A DNA stretch of 64,000 bases from positions 87,621 through 151,620 of the forward strand of contig JAFXEU010000052.1 in NCBI GenBank assembly GCA_017520845.1, given 5' to 3'. Source of the stretch: Kiritimatiellia bacterium. GTDB taxonomy: Bacteria; Verrucomicrobiota; Kiritimatiellia; RFP12; UBA1067. Position numbers and translations under genes: made by a program. Of the stretch, positions 39,242 to 53,574 are shown piece after piece; the stretch's first letter is position 1; the number at the start of each line of letters is the position of its first letter. Under the pieces are notes generated by a model. That model worked only from the letters and a program-made list of their open reading frames with translations. It did no database searches and was not told where the DNA came from.

Positions 39242-41191
39242 ATGGAAAATCCCACTACATACGACGTTATCATAATAGGCGGAGGTCACGCCGGATGCGA
39301 AGCGGCACTTGCCGCGTCGAGAATGGGCGCTGACACCCTGCTTATCACCTCTAAAAAAGAAGCCATTGCGAAAATGCCGTGCAATCCTTCAATCGGAGGT
39401 CTCGCTAAAAGTCACCTTGTCTATGAATTGGATGCTCTCGGCGGAGAGATGGGCAAAAATGCCGACGCTACTACCCTGCAGTCTAAAACGCTCAATTCAA
39501 GCAGAGGCCCGGCAGTCCAGGCTACACGTACTCAGTGTGCCAAAACCGAATATGCACTTCGAATGCAAAGTGTAATATTCTCCCAAAAAAACCTAACTGT
39601 TTTAGAAGACTCTGCAATAGAAATTCTCACTAACGATCAAACAGCTAACTCATCTACTATAACACCAAACTCCAAAATCATCAGACAGTGCATTGGAGTT
39701 AAAACCGAGTTACACGGCTGCATTAACTCTAAAACCGTAGTCATTACTTCAGGTACTTCTTTAAGAGGAAAAATTTGGATCGGTAAGGAAGGTACTGAGA
39801 GTGCCGGTGATAATCGCCCCGCAGTAAATAGGCTTTCGGAGTCTTTAGAAACACTAGGATTTAAACTAATCCGCTTAAAAACTGGCACTCCACCTAGATT
39901 AAAGGCTTCAAGTTGTGATTTTTCACTGTGTAAACGCCAGAATGGTGAGAATCCACGCCCATTGTTCCACGTGGAACACCAAAAAGAACCACTTTCAAGC
40001 TCATCATATTGTTCCACGTGGAACAAATATAAATCTAATATACTCACAGACGAATGTTCCACATGGAACAATCTAGTTGAAAATTCACCTTCTACTGCGT
40101 GTTCCACGTGGAACAAAAGCCAGAATTTACCCGAATATCCATGTTGGATGACACATACAAACAGTAAAACACATGAAATTATTCGGTCGAACCTAGATAA
40201 GTCTGCACTATATGGTGGTGCAATTGTCGGTACTGGTGTTAGATATTGCCCATCAATAGAAGATAAAATTGTAAGATTTGTAACTGCCGATGCACATCAT
40301 GTAATGCTTGAGCCTGAAGATTCAAAAGGAGAAATAATATATCCGAATGGATTGAGCTGCAGTCTGCCAAAAGAAATTCAGGAAAAAATGGTTCATTCGA
40401 TTGTGGGGCTGGAGAATGCTGAATTTCTCGCGTACGCTTACGCAATAGAATATGATGGTATTGACTCACGTGAACTTAAACATTCTTTAGAATCTAAACG
40501 TATAGCCGGATTGTTTTTTGCAGGTCAGGTAAACGGCACAACCGGTTATGAAGAGGCAGCCGCTCAAGGAATAATCGCCGGAATAAATGCTACGTTTTTA
40601 TCTAGAGGAGAAGAACCCTTAATTTTAAGTAGACAAGACGCTTATATCGGTGTGATGATAGACGATCTGGTAACAAAGGGTACAGATGAACCTTATCGTA
40701 TGTTCACCAGTCGAGCGGAACGACGCTTGATACTTAGGCAAGACAACGCAAGGTTCCGTTTGGTTAATGCCGCCGAAAGAATAGGTATTATTTCTGATGA
40801 ACAGATTACCGCTACAAAACTTGTTTATAACTTTATAACAAATCCCCAGGATAAAACCGTAAAAGATTTCATAAACTCTACCTCTTCAAGTAAATGTACT
40901 GTTGAACGTTGGTTCAGTAAAGAAGAAATTGAAAAAGAGATTTTGATTATGCGTCAATATACTCCTTATATAGAGCAGGAGGAAAAGGCGGCTCTTAGAG
41001 CCAAGGAAGATGAAAACATCAAGATCCCAAAATGGCTGAATTATGACAAATGTTTGGCAGTTCGTTACGAGAGCCGCGAAAAACTTAAAAAATACAGTCC
41101 TGAGACATTGGCTCAAGCAAGTAGAATTCCAGGCGTTAATCCGGCAGACATTGCAGTTTTGGCTATTATAATCAAGCGAGGTAAAATTTAA
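39242..41191 (+). CDS. mnmG: tRNA uridine-5-carboxymethylaminomethyl modification enzyme MnmG, with a parS-bearing insert
   Basis: MnmG is the FAD/NADH-dependent partner of MnmE in wobble-uridine modification. The 649-residue protein has the N-terminal dinucleotide fold ([15 protein letters not shown]), the family blocks [10 protein letters not shown] and [13 protein letters not shown], then [16 protein letters not shown] and [21 protein letters not shown]. Between GENPRPL and YPCWMTHT are about 40 extra residues (residues 241-292) relative to the usual family spacing. This insert is encoded by four parS-like palindromes and reads FHVEH once and CSTWN three times. The flanking conserved blocks are intact, so the enzyme is probably functional and the insert a surface loop. 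It heads the origin-proximal gene series mnmG-dnaA-dnaN. Confidence 0.96.
39963..40115. repeat. parS: Cluster of four parS-like ParB sites inside mnmG
   Basis: TGTTCCACGTGGAACA occurs at 39963-39978, 40010-40025 and 40100-40115. TGTTCCACATGGAACA (one change) occurs at 40055-40070. Start-to-start spacing is 47, 45 and 45 bases. The 16-mer is the known chromosomal parS palindrome class recognised by ParB in many bacteria. No parA or parB gene lies in the window. Confidence 0.9.
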
Positions 41192-41321
41192 CTTGTTTAC
41201 TTAAAAAAGTTATCAACATAGATTGTTAATAAGTTGATTATACAAGTAGACTACTTATTGTTGATAACTTCTGCTAGAGTATGGTATATTAACCATGCTG
41301 AAACTAGAGAAAGAAAAACAA
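41192..41321. promoter_or_regulatory. mnmG-dnaA intergenic region with DnaA-box-like sites
   Basis: TTATCAACA at 41210-41218 and the inverted form TGTTGATAA at 41259-41267 flank an AT-rich core. The second box overlaps the -35 element of the dnaA promoter. The sites are the same nonamer found in the other two clusters. Confidence 0.65.
41261..41290 (+). promoter_or_regulatory. dnaA promoter
   Basis: TTGATA (41261-41266), 18-base spacer, TATATT (41285-41290) preceded by TGG. The -35 is embedded in a DnaA-box-like site, which suggests autorepression by DnaA. Transcription should begin near 41297. Confidence 0.6.
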
Positions 41322-42758
41322 ATGAACAACAATGAAATCGATACAGTTTCCGTGGATTTATGGGAACGCGCCAAAACGATTTATCTGTCGACGTTGCGCA
41401 ATGACGAAGAGCGCTCCCAGGCAGAAAATTATTTCTCTATGATTTCGTCAATATCATTGATTGATGATATCCTCACAATATTTGTAAAGACAAGGTTCGG
41501 CGCGGAATATCTTCAGGAAAAATATGCCGATAAGTTAAAACTCTCTCTCGATCTTGCCGGTGCAAAAAAGGAAACAATACTTGAGTTCAAATTCGATCCC
41601 CGGTCGAACACTCAAATCATTCAACCTGTAACTCCGAAAGCGACGGTCGAAACGTTACAGGTTCAACAACCCGCCGCGTCGGTAAAACCTCAAGTTCCTT
41701 TTATTTCTACTCTTCCTCTTGAAGAAAATTACACTTTTGAAGAATTCGTTCAGGGTTCTTCAAACAGCTGGGCGTTCGCTGCAGCCAAGGGCGTCGCTAA
41801 CAATCCCGGTCAAAAAAGTTACAATCCTCTTTTCATTCACGGAGGGACGGGTCTAGGAAAAACCCATCTGATGCAGGCTATCGGCAATGAATTGAAGAAA
41901 AAGAATCCTTCAATGTCGATCTGCTACCTGACCGCCGAAACTTTTCTTAACGAATACGTCAACGCGCTGCAGCAGAAGGGTATGGAATCCTTCAGAGACA
42001 AATACCGCTCGATCGACGTTCTGCTGGTTGACGATATTCAATTCCTTCAAAAAGGTAAACAGTGCCAGGAGGAATTTTTCAACACGTTCAACGATCTGAC
42101 CTGGAAGCATAAACAGATCGTGATGACTTCGGACGTTTCTCCTAAAAATCTACCGGCGCTCGAAGAAAGACTGATTTCACGCTTTATCGGAGGAATGGTA
42201 CAGGAAATCGAGGCCCCGGGATATGAAACGCGCCTTGCCATTCTTAAAAAGAAGGCTGAAAATCTTATTCCTTCAATTCCTCAGTCTACGCTCGAATTTC
42301 TGGCAGACAACATTAAAAGCCACGTCAGAGCGATGGAAGGTGCGCTCGCCAAAGTTCATGTAACAATATCTATAAATCCCACTCAGGAATTGACCCAGGA
42401 GTTTCTTTCGATTATTCTTAAAGACTTCATAGAAAAAGAACAGACTCTCAAGAAACTCACAATAAGGGAAATACAGGAGTGTATCTGCAAAAAGTACGGA
42501 GTTTCCATCGGACAGATACTCTCATCGGACAGAACTGCGTCTCTTGTGACTCCGAGACAACTCGCAATGTATATTTCAAGAAAATATACCACGAAAAGTC
42601 TTCAGGAAATCGCAGCCGAATTCGATAAAAAGCATGCGACGATTCTTCACGGAGTCAAAACGATAGAAAAGCGTCTCGATGTCGAAGGCGAACTTAAAGG
42701 GATACTTGCTGAGGTTTTAGGAGAATTCGGATACAATATCGCCGATAAGATGGAATAA
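41322..42758 (+). CDS. dnaA: Chromosomal replication initiator DnaA
   Basis: DnaA binds origin boxes and melts the origin. Visible parts are domain I (DLWERAKTIYLSTL), a variable linker, the AAA+ domain with Walker A GGTGLGKTH near residue 174 and Walker B VLLVDDIQF near 233, and the C-terminal DNA-binding domain with the DnaA signature as FDKKHATILHGVKTI. That signature is a little unusual: the common form has R/K-D-H-(S/T)-T-V-L-H-A. I chose ATG 41322 (MNNNEID) because the predicted transcript start at about 41297 lies after the earlier ATG at 41295; the region before 41322 is purine-rich but has no strong Shine-Dalgarno site, so 41295 remains possible. It is flanked by DnaA-box-like sites on both sides. 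Confidence 0.96.
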   Translation: MNNNEIDTVSVDLWERAKTIYLSTLRNDEERSQAENYFSMISSISLIDDILTIFVKTRFGAEYLQEKYADKLKLSLDLAGAKKETILEFKFDPRSNTQIIQPVTPKATVETLQVQQPAASVKPQVPFISTLPLEENYTFEEFVQGSSNSWAFAAAKGVANNPGQKSYNPLFIHGGTGLGKTHLMQAIGNELKKKNPSMSICYLTAETFLNEYVNALQQKGMESFRDKYRSIDVLLVDDIQFLQKGKQCQEEFFNTFNDLTWKHKQIVMTSDVSPKNLPALEERLISRFIGGMVQEIEAPGYETRLAILKKKAENLIPSIPQSTLEFLADNIKSHVRAMEGALAKVHVTISINPTQELTQEFLSIILKDFIEKEQTLKKLTIREIQECICKKYGVSIGQILSSDRTASLVTPRQLAMYISRKYTTKSLQEIAAEFDKKHATILHGVKTIEKRLDVEGELKGILAEVLGEFGYNIADKME

Positions 42759-43031
42759 ACAATTTAATCTACAACAATGTAAATAAAGTGCGTTATTATC
42801 AACAGCTGTCTACAAAGAAATAAGTTATCAAAGCTATCATAAAAAAAAATGACAACAAATCAACATTGTCAAATCAAGAACGCTCCAGTAAAATAAAGGC
42901 TAAAATAAGTTATCAACATTGTCTACAACCATAATACTAATATATCCTCTTTAATTAATCACTATTATTTGATACAATTGATGACAACTGAAGAATTGTG
43001 AATTAAAATTTAGATTCAGAAAGATAAAAAA
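42759..43031. promoter_or_regulatory. dnaA-dnaN intergenic region, candidate oriC segment
   Basis: This 273-base AT-rich gap holds TTATCAACA at 42796-42804 and 42910-42918 and a weaker TTATCAAAG at 42825-42833, with runs of A/T suitable for unwinding. There is no ORF. Position between dnaA and dnaN is the classic oriC location in many bacteria. Confidence 0.6.
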
Positions 43032-46275: not shown

Positions 46276-46337
46276 TTATCAACAATATTATCAACAGTTG
46301 TTGATAAGTTGATAAGGTTGTTGATAACTGTTGATAA
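46276..46337. promoter_or_regulatory. Dense cluster of DnaA-box-like nonamers
   Basis: TTATCAACA at 46276-46284 and 46288-46296; its complement TGTTGATAA at 46299-46307, 46319-46327 and 46329-46337; and AGTTGATAA (one change) at 46307-46315. Six sites in 62 bases in both orientations. The same nonamer recurs around dnaA. It lies immediately upstream of the promoter of the HTH gene. Confidence 0.8.
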
Positions 46338-46345
46338 CTTCTCCC

Positions 46346-46374
46346 TTGTTAAATCCTGAATAATAGTCCATAAT
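46346..46374 (+). promoter_or_regulatory. Promoter of the HTH/zinc-ribbon gene
   Basis: TTGTTA (46346-46351), 17-base spacer, CATAAT (46369-46374). The expected start near 46381 is one base before the GTG start codon, and no Shine-Dalgarno site is visible, so the transcript may be leaderless. Confidence 0.5.
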
Positions 46375-46381
46375 ATATGTC

Positions 46382-46858
46382 GTGACAAATCTACATCCAG
46401 ATATTTGCAGAAAAATTAATGATGCGCGCAGAGAACGCGGCATCTCTCAAAGCCTGCTTGCCAAAGAAGTGGGTTGTAAACAATCTGCACTGTCGATGTT
46501 TGAACAGGGTGACGGTACTAAGCTTAATGACGAAGTTATCAAAAAGCTTTGCGATAAGTTCGGTATTAAGTTATCTACAGAAAAAGCTGCCGTAGAAATT
46601 CCGGTTGCGCCCGCCGTTCAAAGGGTTTTTGAAGTTGAGAAGGGTTATTGCCCTAATCCCAATTGTCCTTCCCATATAGCCTACGAGGTTGACGGGCGAA
46701 AATTCTTAAAGCCGGATCGTCGACTCCAGGATCCCGTGGGCGGAAAATTCTGCGCGATATGCGGAGAAGTGCTTGAGAAGCGCTGCCCTAACTGCGGCTC
46801 GCTTGTTCACGACGGAGCCGTCTGTTCCATTTGCGGCGAAAGCTATATTGCGATATAA
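46382..46858 (+). CDS. XRE-type HTH protein with a C-terminal zinc ribbon
   Basis: This 158-residue protein starts at GTG. Residues about 8-65 form a Cro/C1-type helix-turn-helix (INDARRERGISQSLLAKEVG, CKQSALSMFEQG). The C-terminal part has three Cys pairs: CPNPNC, CAICGEVLEKRCPNCG and CSICG, arranged as double zinc ribbons. It is therefore probably a DNA-binding regulator with structural zinc. The six DnaA-box-like sites directly upstream suggest DnaA control, or that the protein takes part in origin regulation. No close named family is evident to me. Confidence 0.8.
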   Translation: MTNLHPDICRKINDARRERGISQSLLAKEVGCKQSALSMFEQGDGTKLNDEVIKKLCDKFGIKLSTEKAAVEIPVAPAVQRVFEVEKGYCPNPNCPSHIAYEVDGRKFLKPDRRLQDPVGGKFCAICGEVLEKRCPNCGSLVHDGAVCSICGESYIAI

Positions 46859-47731: not shown

Positions 47732-50353
47732 ATGAAGAGAGTTTTACTTGCTTTTGCTTTTGCGGTTGTTTCGCTTTTTGCCGCACATGGTGCGGATAAG
47801 AATGTCAATACCTTTGAAGTCGGCGACGGAGAGTTTCTTCTTGACGGGAAGCCGTTCGTGATCCGTTGCGGTGAGATGCACTTCGCGCGTGTACCCAAGG
47901 CGTATTGGCAGCATCGTTTGAAAATGATCCGAGCCTGCGGCTTTAATGCCGTCTGCGCGTATATGTTCTGGAACTATCACGAGATGACGGAAGGTAAAAT
48001 CGACTTTACCGGCGATCGCGATGTCGCCGAATTCTGCCGCCTCGCTCAAGCCGAAGGGTTGTGGGTTATTTTGCGTCCGGGTCCATACACGTGCGCGGAG
48101 TGGGATCTCGGGGGGCACCCCTGGTGGCTTTTGGTCAAGGACGGAATTCGTCTTCGCTCGACCGATCCTAAATATATGGTCCCCGCTAAGCGCTATCTCG
48201 CGGCGGTCGGGCGCGAGCTCGCGCCGCTTCAGATCACGAAGGGCGGACCGATCATCATGGTTCAGGCCGAGAATGAATACGGTAGCTACGGCGACGATCC
48301 CGGTTACATGCGCGAAATCTGGAAGGCCCTTAAAGACGGAGGATTTGAAGTTCCGCTTTTTGCGTGCAATGGGCGTGGCGCGATAAAGAAAGGCTACATT
48401 CCCGAGTTGCTTCCAATTGTAAATTTTGGATCCAATCCCGAGGCCGCTTTCGCGGAACTTAAAGAGCTCTCTCCCAAGAGTCCTTTGATGTGCGGCGAGT
48501 TTTATCCCGCATGGTTCGATTCGTGGGGGAAGATTCATCACGTCAAGAGCGCCGATGACTGCTTAAGGGATCTTAAGTACATGCTTGAACACAAGGCGAG
48601 CTTCTCGGTTTACATGGCTCACGGCGGAACTACGTTCGCCTGGTGGGCCGGGTGCAATTGGCCTTTCGTTCCCGAGGTTTCAAGCTACGATTACGACGCG
48701 CCCATTTCTGAAGCCGGTTGGACTAACGAAAAGTTTTTCGCGATGCGTAATCTCTTTGCGCAATTCTTAAACCCGGGCGAGACAATTCCTGAGCCGCCCG
48801 CTCCAATGCCGCTTCAAAAAGGCTCCGCTAAGTTGATAGCGAAGAGCGCGAATATTTATGATCTCGCTTCAGTGTCGAAGAGGCTCGAAAGCGACTCTCC
48901 CATAATATTCGAAAAGGCGGGGCTCGGCTACGGTCTCGCCGTTTACGAAACTTCGATTCCCGCGAATATGGGCGGTGAGCTTAAAGCGGACGTGCGCGAC
49001 CTTGGCGTTGTCAGAGTCGACGGAGTTGAGATGGGATTTCTCGATCGCCGCGATCCTAAGGTCACCGTTAAAATTCCGGCTTCTTCAAAACAGCGCAAAC
49101 TCGAAATTCTTGTCGAGCCGATGGGGCGCTATAATTTTTCCGAGAAAATGCACGAGGGCATAAAGGGTATCGTCGGCGACGTCAGACTTGACGGTAAAGT
49201 TCTTAAGGATTGGAAGACAGCTTACTTTACATACGATGAAGCGGTCGATTCCCCCAAGTTCGGCGAAGAGCGCGATTTAGCGTCGCTTAAGTCGACAAGC
49301 GCCGGAAGCGTCCATAAAATCAAAGTCAATCTTGAAGGCGGCAAGGATACGTTCCTCGATATGAGCGGTTTCCGCCGCGGGCTCGTAAGACTCAACGACC
49401 GCTGGCTCGGCCGCTATTGGGCAATCGGGCCGACTCAGACTATGTATGTTCCCGGCTGCTGGATAAAGGACGGAGAGAATGAACTTACGATAATCGATAC
49501 GGTCGGCTCGTTCATGAAGCCCAAATCGAAACTCATTTGGCGCTCGGAGCCGATACTCGACGTCAATTGCGTCGAGAATGATTACTTCAAACATGAACTG
49601 CGTAAAACGAGAGTCGGGCTTGACGCGTGGAAGGGAATGAAAGTCGCTTTCCTCGGAGACTCCATCACCGATCCCGCCCACATCGCCTGCACGAGCAACT
49701 ACTGGAATTTCATGATCGACGATCTCAATCTTGATGCGAAGGTTTATGGTGTGAGCGGCTGCACGTGGAAGGGACTTCCCGATCAGATCAATCGTATTCA
49801 CGAATCAATGGATACGGATTTTGACGCGATTTTCGTTTTCCTCGGAACGAACGATTACAACGCTAATGTTCCGCTCGGCGAATTTTACGATTATCGCGAC
49901 GAGGAGACGAACCGCAACGGAAAGAAAGTGGTATTGAAGCGCCGTTATTTAAACCGCGACGTTTCCGTTTTTGCGGGTAGGATCAATTTCGCGATGAATC
50001 GTCTTAAGTCGGAATTCCCGCAGTCGCAGATTATTTTGCTGACTCCTCTCCACCGCGCGTTCTTCAAATATAATGAAACGAATGTCCAGCCGCCCGAGTC
50101 GTTCCCGAACGAGCTAGGCCTTTACATCGACGAATATGTCGACATGCTTAAGCGCGCCGCTCAGATCTGGTCTGTTCCCGTAATTGATCTTTTCGGCGAG
50201 TCAGGTCTCATTCCCGAGAATGACAGCTATGGAGTTCTTTATTTCGGCAACTCAAAGACCGATCGTCTTCACCCGAACACGAACGGCCATAGACGCATCG
50301 CCGATCTCATCGAGGCTAAGCTCAACGTGCTCCCCGCGTCGTTCCGCAGATAG
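47732..50353 (+). CDS. Secreted GH35 beta-galactosidase fused to an SGNH/GDSL esterase
   Basis: The 873-residue protein starts with a signal peptide (MKRVLLAFAFAVVSLFAAHG). Residues about 30-350 are a GH35 TIM barrel: LRPGPYTCAEWDLGG, the acid/base Glu183 in QAENEYGS, and the nucleophile Glu257 in MCGEFYPAWFDSWG. Jelly-roll segments follow to residue ~600. The last ~240 residues are an SGNH hydrolase with block I as VAFLGDSITD, block III-like FVFLGTNDYN, and the catalytic D-x-x-H as DRLHPNTNGH. The enzyme probably removes terminal beta-galactose and an acyl (often acetyl) group from the same host or plant glycan. The fusion of both activities in one chain is less common than separate genes. 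Confidence 0.92.
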   Translation: MKRVLLAFAFAVVSLFAAHGADKNVNTFEVGDGEFLLDGKPFVIRCGEMHFARVPKAYWQHRLKMIRACGFNAVCAYMFWNYHEMTEGKIDFTGDRDVAEFCRLAQAEGLWVILRPGPYTCAEWDLGGHPWWLLVKDGIRLRSTDPKYMVPAKRYLAAVGRELAPLQITKGGPIIMVQAENEYGSYGDDPGYMREIWKALKDGGFEVPLFACNGRGAIKKGYIPELLPIVNFGSNPEAAFAELKELSPKSPLMCGEFYPAWFDSWGKIHHVKSADDCLRDLKYMLEHKASFSVYMAHGGTTFAWWAGCNWPFVPEVSSYDYDAPISEAGWTNEKFFAMRNLFAQFLNPGETIPEPPAPMPLQKGSAKLIAKSANIYDLASVSKRLESDSPIIFEKAGLGYGLAVYETSIPANMGGELKADVRDLGVVRVDGVEMGFLDRRDPKVTVKIPASSKQRKLEILVEPMGRYNFSEKMHEGIKGIVGDVRLDGKVLKDWKTAYFTYDEAVDSPKFGEERDLASLKSTSAGSVHKIKVNLEGGKDTFLDMSGFRRGLVRLNDRWLGRYWAIGPTQTMYVPGCWIKDGENELTIIDTVGSFMKPKSKLIWRSEPILDVNCVENDYFKHELRKTRVGLDAWKGMKVAFLGDSITDPAHIACTSNYWNFMIDDLNLDAKVYGVSGCTWKGLPDQINRIHESMDTDFDAIFVFLGTNDYNANVPLGEFYDYRDEETNRNGKKVVLKRRYLNRDVSVFAGRINFAMNRLKSEFPQSQIILLTPLHRAFFKYNETNVQPPESFPNELGLYIDEYVDMLKRAAQIWSVPVIDLFGESGLIPENDSYGVLYFGNSKTDRLHPNTNGHRRIADLIEAKLNVLPASFRR

Positions 50354-51233: not shown

Positions 51234-51262
51234 TAAAGTTGCAATATGAAAGGCAAGACGAT

Positions 51263-52246
51263 ATGATGTCTGACGATAAAGCCACGACAAGGGCGAATCT
51301 TTCGTCCGATAAAATCCAGCGGAGCATTCTCACGATGCGTGGGGTTCAGGTCATGCTTGACAGGGACTTGGCTGAACTTTACGGCGTCCCCGTAAAACGT
51401 CTCAACGAGCAAGTACGACGGAACATGGATCGTTTCCCTGACGGTTTCATGTTTCAGTTGTCGGCATCAGAGTTTGCAGACTTGAAGTCGCAGATTGCGA
51501 CTTCAAGTCCAGAAGGGGAGTTGGAACACTTGAAGTCGCAGATTGCGACTTCAAGTTGGGGTGGTGTCCGCAAGCCGCCGAAGGTCTTTACCGAGCAAGG
51601 CGTTGCAATGCTTTCTGCCGTTCTGAATTCGCAGACGGCGGTATCGGTTTCCATCGCCATAATGGATGCATTCGTCAAGATGCGGCATTTTTTGGTCGCC
51701 AATGCCGAAGTTGTCTGCCGCATGAACATATTGGAAAAACGCCAGATTGCGACGGACGCGAAGGTTGATGAAATTCTTCGGCGCATCGATGTCGCTGAGC
51801 CGCCGTTGCAGGGCGTGTTCTATGACGGGCAGTTGTGGGACGCGAGGGCGTTGGTGCTGAAGCTGATCGGAAGCGCGAAGAAGTCGCTTATTCTGATCGA
51901 CAACTGGGCGACGGCGGAAACTCTTGACCTGTTCGCCAAGAAGCGCAAGGGTGTTAAAGTGACTATTATCACCTCGGAGCATTACGACAAAAAGCATGTG
52001 CCGCACCGCAAGATTTCGGACGCCGACATCGCGACCTTCAACGCGCAGTATCCGCATCTCGTAGTTCGCTACAATGAAACCTTTCACGATCGCTTTCTGA
52101 TTGTCGATGACAAGGAACTTTATCTGATAGGTGCGTCACTGAAAGATTTGGGCAAAAAGTGCTTTGGCTTCACCAAGATGGACGCGGGTGAGATTGACCG
52201 CATCAAGAAGGCGGCATTTGAGGGAATATTTAATCACAAATCATGA
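51263..52246 (+). CDS. ORF6N-domain protein fused to a phospholipase D-like domain
   Basis: Residues about 10-110 form an ORF6N (KilA-N-related, phage-type DNA-binding) domain: ILTMRGVQVMLDRDLAELYG, VRRNMDRFPDGFMF, then FTEQGVAMLSAVL. A linker leads to a PLD-like nuclease domain (residues about 190-320) with one H-x-D-type motif, FHDRFLIVDD, near residue 275. A single motif per chain suggests a homodimeric nuclease. I chose ATG 51263; AAAGG lies about ten bases upstream, while an upstream TTG lacks support. The LKSQIATSS segment is duplicated in frame at two identical DNA palindromes. It lies just upstream of the NurA-HerA operon but has its own orientation-matched flanks, so membership in that system is open. 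Confidence 0.82.
   Translation: MMSDDKATTRANLSSDKIQRSILTMRGVQVMLDRDLAELYGVPVKRLNEQVRRNMDRFPDGFMFQLSASEFADLKSQIATSSPEGELEHLKSQIATSSWGGVRKPPKVFTEQGVAMLSAVLNSQTAVSVSIAIMDAFVKMRHFLVANAEVVCRMNILEKRQIATDAKVDEILRRIDVAEPPLQGVFYDGQLWDARALVLKLIGSAKKSLILIDNWATAETLDLFAKKRKGVKVTIITSEHYDKKHVPHRKISDADIATFNAQYPHLVVRYNETFHDRFLIVDDKELYLIGASLKDLGKKCFGFTKMDAGEIDRIKKAAFEGIFNHKS
51480..51508. repeat. 29-base palindrome inside the ORF6N gene, copy 1
   Basis: The arms ACTTGAAGTCGCA and TGCGACTTCAAGT pair perfectly around GAT. It encodes LKSQIATSS. An identical copy starts 48 bases later. Confidence 0.9.
51528..51556. repeat. 29-base palindrome inside the ORF6N gene, copy 2
   Basis: Identical to 51480-51508, offset by 48 bases so the reading frame is kept and the same peptide is encoded again. 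Confidence 0.9.
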
Positions 52247-52428: not shown

Positions 52429-53574
52429 ATGGGAGGCGTAACACAAGCGCTTGAGAAAATAACTGGGCGACATTGTTTTGAAACCTATCGCCGGTGTCTT
52501 GACAAGGAGAGGCAGTCTCTCCTTGAATATGACTATTGCGATCAGGAGTTCATGGCGCAACAGGGAGAATCGATCCGTTATGAAGGGGCGCGTGACATTT
52601 CGTCAATAGCGGCTGATTGGTTAGGGCACGATCCGGCATTTAAGTTGTTCTTGGATGGCTCGCGAAGGACATATAAAATTGTAGATATGCCGATTGGGTC
52701 ACAGGTCTTTCCAATCGTGGCTGGGCAGGTTGGTGTGGGCGTATGCAAAAGAGAGGTTCGGCGTGTTACTCCCTGCGAACTTATGTTTGATATTGTTCTG
52801 GCGGTTCCAGATAAAATCAATCCTGATGGCGGTGGGTCGCGACAGAACGCGGCGTATTGCGCAGATCTCCTCGATAAACTTAATCGAGAGCAGAATCGCG
52901 TACGAATCAATGATATTATTTTCTATTCTTCGCAGTTGAGAGACAGGGAGAATTTCGAGGACAAGGCTGTCTCGCGTATTCAGGAATATATGATCACTCA
53001 TGAGAAGGCTATGGTTGATAGGCTTGTCCAAAAGCGGATTCTGACTGATCGCTCATGGTTGATTAAGGATGGATCTCTTGAGTACTCTAAAGTTGCCGAC
53101 AAGGAAGACAAGTTCTCTTTCAATCGAATTCGTAATAACTTTCGCCGTGTAGTGGGTGTGTCAAAATCATTCAATCCTGAATTGGCGAAACTCAAGAGCA
53201 ACAAGAGTGCAGCTGGGCTTATTGCGCGCTTGCAGGCATGCGAGCGAACTCCCGCTGCTATGTACAAGAGTGAGCGTCTAGGTTTTTCGGCGTTTGCTGT
53301 TTGGTATCTACGTCTTCGTAAGCCACGATATGGTAGAGGCCCATTTGATGGGATTGTGAAGGTAGAGAAGGTCCTAATTACTGACCATGAGAAAGAATTT
53401 GGTTTGGAAAGTTCTGAAGTAGATAATATTAGTGCCTGGCTGTTGAACGAGCGCAATCCAGTATGTTATGGCAAGGATAGCCGTTGGGCGAATCATCTTT
53501 ATCCCGTGTATTTGACAGAAGCATATGTGAAAAGCAAATATCGCGGCGAGCAACATTTCGTCAATCTTTTTTAG
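52429..53574 (+). CDS. NurA-like nuclease, first gene of the six-gene operon
   Basis: NurA nucleases act with the HerA translocase on DNA ends. In this 381-residue protein the NurA-type first motif appears as FLDGSR (Asp76, Ser78), followed by PIVAGQVGVGV and a second acidic region (ELMFDIVLAVPDKINPDGGG). The C-terminal half has basic helices and ends EQHFVNLF. The assignment rests on this motif and on the HerA-like gene that follows after ten bases; it is weaker than for the ATPase. A DGSR-type nuclease next to HerA is a recurring pair in archaeal end resection and in bacterial defence loci. Confidence 0.6.
   Translation: MGGVTQALEKITGRHCFETYRRCLDKERQSLLEYDYCDQEFMAQQGESIRYEGARDISSIAADWLGHDPAFKLFLDGSRRTYKIVDMPIGSQVFPIVAGQVGVGVCKREVRRVTPCELMFDIVLAVPDKINPDGGGSRQNAAYCADLLDKLNREQNRVRINDIIFYSSQLRDRENFEDKAVSRIQEYMITHEKAMVDRLVQKRILTDRSWLIKDGSLEYSKVADKEDKFSFNRIRNNFRRVVGVSKSFNPELAKLKSNKSAAGLIARLQACERTPAAMYKSERLGFSAFAVWYLRLRKPRYGRGPFDGIVKVEKVLITDHEKEFGLESSEVDNISAWLLNERNPVCYGKDSRWANHLYPVYLTEAYVKSKYRGEQHFVNLF

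Follow-up and report, generated by a model that had tools for sequence, protein, structure and literature searches.

Six nonamers resembling DnaA boxes lie within 62 bp in front of a gene coding an HTH/zinc-ribbon protein in a metagenome-assembled genome (2.74 Mb, 116 contigs) of Kiritimatiellae, a group of gut bacteria. We consider that the nonamers are probably DnaA boxes forming an upstream control region of this gene, through which DnaA would control its transcription. Among the three readings offered by the initial annotation (an initiation site displaced from dnaA, a titration site for DnaA, and control of the HTH gene by DnaA), the last was the best supported, with the array tracking the promoter of the gene. 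Comparison of sequences gave the array itself, its near-uniqueness in the genome, the class-wide identity of its motif as a DnaA box, the conserved promoter adjacent to it, and its association with the gene across families; from these we infer binding of DnaA to the array and the role of the HTH protein.

Nonamer array upstream of the HTH/zinc-ribbon gene

In the window (the whole stretch of DNA analyzed, 64 kb), the gene order on the + strand was mnmG, dnaA, dnaN, a gene for an RlmL-like methyltransferase, a gene for a coiled-coil protein, the nonamer array, the HTH/zinc-ribbon gene, and a PAP2 gene. The features around the array were as follows.

46276–46284, + strand: putative DnaA box 1, TTATCAACA, exact match
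46288–46296, + strand: putative DnaA box 2, TTATCAACA, exact match
46299–46307, - strand: putative DnaA box 3, TTATCAACA, exact match, inverted pair with box 2
46307–46315, - strand: putative DnaA box 4, TTATCAACT, one mismatch, one base common to box 3
46319–46327, - strand: putative DnaA box 5, TTATCAACA, exact match
46329–46337, - strand: putative DnaA box 6, TTATCAACA, exact match
46346–46374, + strand: predicted sigma70-like promoter, TTGTTA-17-CATAAT, from sequence, conserved in the genus
46382–46858, + strand: XRE-type HTH and double zinc-ribbon protein, 158 aa, GTG start, from Pfam, cysteines and an AF2 model

The cluster described in the initial annotation was thus recovered as five exact copies of TTATCAACA and one copy with a single mismatch in 62 bp, and the reported distance of 45–106 bp from the boxes to the GTG at 46382 was correct. 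The orientation of the boxes, however, was not alternating; the order was ++----, with two boxes on the + strand followed by four on the - strand.

Exact TTATCAACA occurred 10 times in the window, against 0.44 expected, and 30 times in the whole genome, where 9 of the 30 copies fell within the interval from the dnaA promoter to the HTH gene. Pairs were then searched with any base allowed at position 5 (TTATNAACA), counting direct or convergent boxes no more than 25 bp apart. Paired TTATNAACA was found at only two places genome-wide, the dnaA promoter and the array at 46276–46337; the control with the reversed pattern returned no pair in the whole genome.

Identity of the motif

The E. coli box TTATNCACA was rare in the window. 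Motif enrichment around dnaA in the genus was for TTATCAACA/TTATCTACA in the upstream region and for TTGTCNACA in the gap between dnaA and dnaN. To rule out that the motif belongs to the HTH protein, dnaA loci were chosen from 32 class members lacking the full-length HTH gene. The dnaA flanks of these members contained TTATNAACA 44 times, compared with 1.2 times in shuffles, which here and for the HTH promoters below preserve base composition only; the reversed motif appeared once in the same loci. Because TTATNAACA is enriched at dnaA without the HTH gene, it would be a DnaA box independent of that gene, and on this enrichment it is the DnaA box of the class. The HTH promoter therefore has what a DnaA-regulated promoter would have in this respect, multiple boxes matching the DnaA box of the organism itself.

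The boxes in the HTH promoters were stricter than those at the origin. In the genus, HTH-promoter boxes had A in 96% at position 3 and in 98% at position 6, whereas origin boxes had G at position 3 in 64% and A, T or G at position 6. A different binder is therefore possible, and this somewhat different consensus between the HTH promoters and the dnaA-dnaN gap fits an explanation in which the nonamers are the operator of the HTH protein itself, which may act at the dnaA promoter too. Autoregulation is common among XRE proteins, and the motif does follow the HTH gene. Such autoregulation nevertheless seems quite improbable to us and is weaker than control by DnaA: the dnaA loci of class members lacking a full-length HTH gene are enriched in TTATNAACA, the array is placed upstream of the -35 element instead of over the -35 and -10 elements, and the half-site has the length and sequence of a DnaA box.

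Promoter of the HTH gene and conservation of the array

The array ends directly upstream of TTGTTA-17-CATAAT, and the GTG at 46382 is located seven bases past the -10 element. CATAAT/TATAAT ended 7–11 nt ahead of the start codon in about 21–22 of the 28 genus members, and the spacing of the -35 element, the -10 element and the start codon was conserved. With the -10 element so close to the start codon, the transcript is predicted to start at or adjoining the GTG, and the HTH mRNA is probably leaderless. The boxes adjoin this promoter and are conserved with it, with some exceptions given below, as would be the case for a promoter regulated by DnaA.

Exact boxes were present in the HTH promoters of all 28 genus members (1–5 boxes; mean 2.7 per 200 bp), in 13 dnaA-linked HTH promoters of other genera (3–6; mean 4.1), in 8 HTH promoters on a contig other than that of dnaA (1–4; mean 2.75), and in 7 HTH promoters of family f3 (2–9; mean 4.9), compared with about 0.01–0.02 per 200 bp in shuffled HTH promoters. 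The control with other ORFs gave inflated box counts, as it takes in alternative ORFs overlapping the dnaA and HTH promoters. The array accompanied the HTH gene in six families, including cases of inversion and contigs separate from dnaA. In L007 the HTH gene was inverted and the array was turned along with it, and in L071/G058 the gene was divergent beside dnaA with the array still attached to the gene. In L089 and L090, short repeats such as GGGGACAGTCCCC and ACGAACCACGAATC were observed just upstream of the box array at the HTH gene.

Outside the order, the array was weaker or partly lost. The promoter was kept with the array absent in L018, L022 and L024, which are near the genus, and in L124 and L126 of family f6; promoters of L194 and L195 of family f3 also lacked the array, and no array was seen in L132 of family f6. 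These cases count against control by DnaA, with the reservation that the genomes compared were mostly draft assemblies from metagenomes, in which a missing gene or array may be an assembly gap.

Two lineages with gene copies away from dnaA and without the array (L018/L022/L024 and G019/G023) instead agree with the idea that titration (or inactivation) of DnaA near oriC is the chief function of the array, the HTH gene being a neighbor or a side target. The array is the densest in the genome, and some 3.4 kb separates it from the likely origin described below, so it would be doubled right after initiation. In these respects it resembles datA of E. coli and the oriC-proximal DnaA-box clusters of B. 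subtilis, which are sites of the titration or inactivation type, as its dense DnaA boxes lie outside the unwinding region and near oriC in the genus. Unlike those sites, however, the array moves with the promoter of one gene, keeping a fixed distance from it also on contigs separate from dnaA and in other genera and families, and six boxes are few, though perhaps strong. We therefore regard titration as an unlikely main function. It is possible as a second effect, which could add to promoter control because the array is near oriC in the genus.

The dnaA locus and the likely oriC

The features of the dnaA locus were as follows.

41210–41267, no strand assigned: dnaA-promoter boxes, TTATCAACA-N5-TGTTAATAA at 41210–41232 and TGTTGATAA at 41259–41267
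41295–42758, + strand: dnaA, Pfam Bac_DnaA, E=9e-64
42759–43031, + strand: dnaA-dnaN gap, AT-rich, likely oriC, with tandem boxes TTATCAACA TTGTCTACA near 42910 and a DnaA-trio-like track

The nonamer had been called sparse around dnaA. This held only in part: the dnaA promoter contains a pair and a third copy, and the gap contains two more TTATCAACA (at 42796 and 42910) plus diverged boxes. By eye, the DNA-binding domain near the C-terminus of DnaA reads KKHATILHG, where the corresponding segment of E. coli DnaA is RDHTTVLHA; this difference might accompany the change of the box from TTATCCACA to TTATNAACA.

In bacterial oriC, tandem boxes and DnaA-trios make up the basal unwinding system (PMC8287927). 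A counterpart of this system was found close to the array, in the dnaA-dnaN gap, where alignment of the genus revealed two adjacent boxes followed by trios of the TAATAATAA type. Strict runs of three or more trios, by a rule of our own that is narrower than the published one, were present in 8 of 28 dnaA-dnaN gaps and in 0 of 28 regions upstream of dnaA. The gap is thus likely the unwinding module, or oriC, conserved in the genus. The array is about 3.4–3.5 kb away from it.

That replication truly starts at the array, away from dnaA, is highly improbable, even though the dense boxes of the array are within a few kb of a broad skew change. Under the same strict rule, tandem boxes followed by at least three DnaA-trios on the same strand were found in none of the 28 HTH promoters, and the boxes adjoining the AT-rich promoter point in the direction opposite to those at the unwinding module, so that the array differs from the basal unwinding system in both the trio track and the box orientation. 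GC skew, which the initial annotation had proposed as a check, was informative where dnaA and the HTH gene were apart, with the switch at dnaA and not at the HTH gene. In G001, the skew switched at dnaA on the dnaA contig, and the HTH contig was mostly positive on both sides; in G016, in which both genes are on one contig 34 kb apart, the cumulative skew minimum was at dnaA. G061 and G008 were left out of the skew analysis as too noisy. In the contig of the window, the cumulative skew minimum was at 40172 and the best change points spanned 39.4–45.4 kb, which is compatible with the dnaA-dnaN gap but not sharp, with 40 kb and 45 kb not separable. When GC skew at four-fold sites was computed gene by gene and pooled across 28 genomes, transcription and codon bias kept it from resolving where the origin lies.

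parS-like sites also lay on the side of dnaA. In four genomes with dnaA and the HTH gene apart (G001, G008, G061 and G016), they were 9–24 kb from dnaA, and none were found on the HTH stretches examined.

In the genome of the window, all three parS-like GTTCCACGTGGAAC sites (39964–39977, 40011–40024 and 40101–40114) were inside mnmG (39242–41191), in a stretch that translates as repeats of CSTWN/FHVEH. Many relatives likewise had TTCCACGTGGAA sites inside mnmG, in either orientation of mnmG. This suggests a conserved cluster of ParB sites hidden in a protein-coding insertion of mnmG.

The HTH/zinc-ribbon protein and other genes of the window

The HTH protein matched Pfam HTH_3 (E=7e-11, 42.4 bits against a cut-off of 23), as expected of an XRE regulator, and its match to Pfam DZR was slightly under the cut-off. 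Eight cysteines, arranged in four pairs, were invariant across 37 relatives. The NCBIfam search gave no family above cut-off; an MqsA-type HTH/zinc antitoxin was rejected, with 18.7 bits against a cut-off of 61.8. The AF2 model (mean pLDDT 91, pTM 0.49) was confident in fold for each domain. Structural comparison returned clear relatives for the HTH part only, all of them generic XRE domains (HipB, SinR, MBF1), and the sequence search against solved structures gave no more than a marginal match, between the zinc part and Nop10. Full-length relatives occurred within the order, and some families scattered through the class also had them.

Further along the window, 47732–50353 codes one protein in which a family-35 glycosyl hydrolase is fused to a GDSL-type hydrolase domain. 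An ORF6N-domain protein (PF10543, E=1.9e-32), whose domain is of phage type, is coded at 51239–52246, a few kb away from the likely oriC, and the ORFs after it at 52429 and 53585 had no Pfam matches.

Proposed control of the HTH gene by DnaA

With a dense, conserved array of DnaA sites in its promoter, the HTH gene would probably be switched by the replication machinery. An established precedent is sda of B. subtilis, which is activated by DnaA boxes in its upstream region (PMC4447404). The arrangement here is similar in that DnaA boxes are directly upstream of a small regulatory gene, with DnaA serving as a transcription factor at sda (PMC4447404); it differs in its target, an unnamed and unrelated XRE/zinc-ribbon protein, in its box, TTATNAACA, in a promoter that is apparently leaderless, and in that the control is one we infer. 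Given this precedent and the array at the promoter, control by a DnaA oligomer is most likely here. DnaA would assemble, probably as a cooperative ATP-dependent oligomer, on the boxes between -45 and -106, immediately before the -35 element, and would set the rate of the leaderless HTH promoter. The output of the XRE/zinc-ribbon protein would then track the DnaA and replication state of the cell. As for the sign of control, the position of the array suggests activation or oligomer-gated control over simple occlusion of the -10 element.

More tentatively, and with doubt, the protein may be a class-wide cell-cycle regulator of Kiritimatiellae whose transcription follows DnaA via the array and which feeds back on replication or division. 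Such a DnaA-controlled circuit, if true, is not described in other bacteria. Our literature search found no paper on oriC of this phylum, and little or nothing is published on its replication control; the present analysis yields, for the class, a consensus for the DnaA box and a likely oriC. In this genome, the HTH gene is the one gene besides dnaA with a promoter built from paired DnaA boxes, and its product is therefore the leading candidate for a replication-linked regulator.
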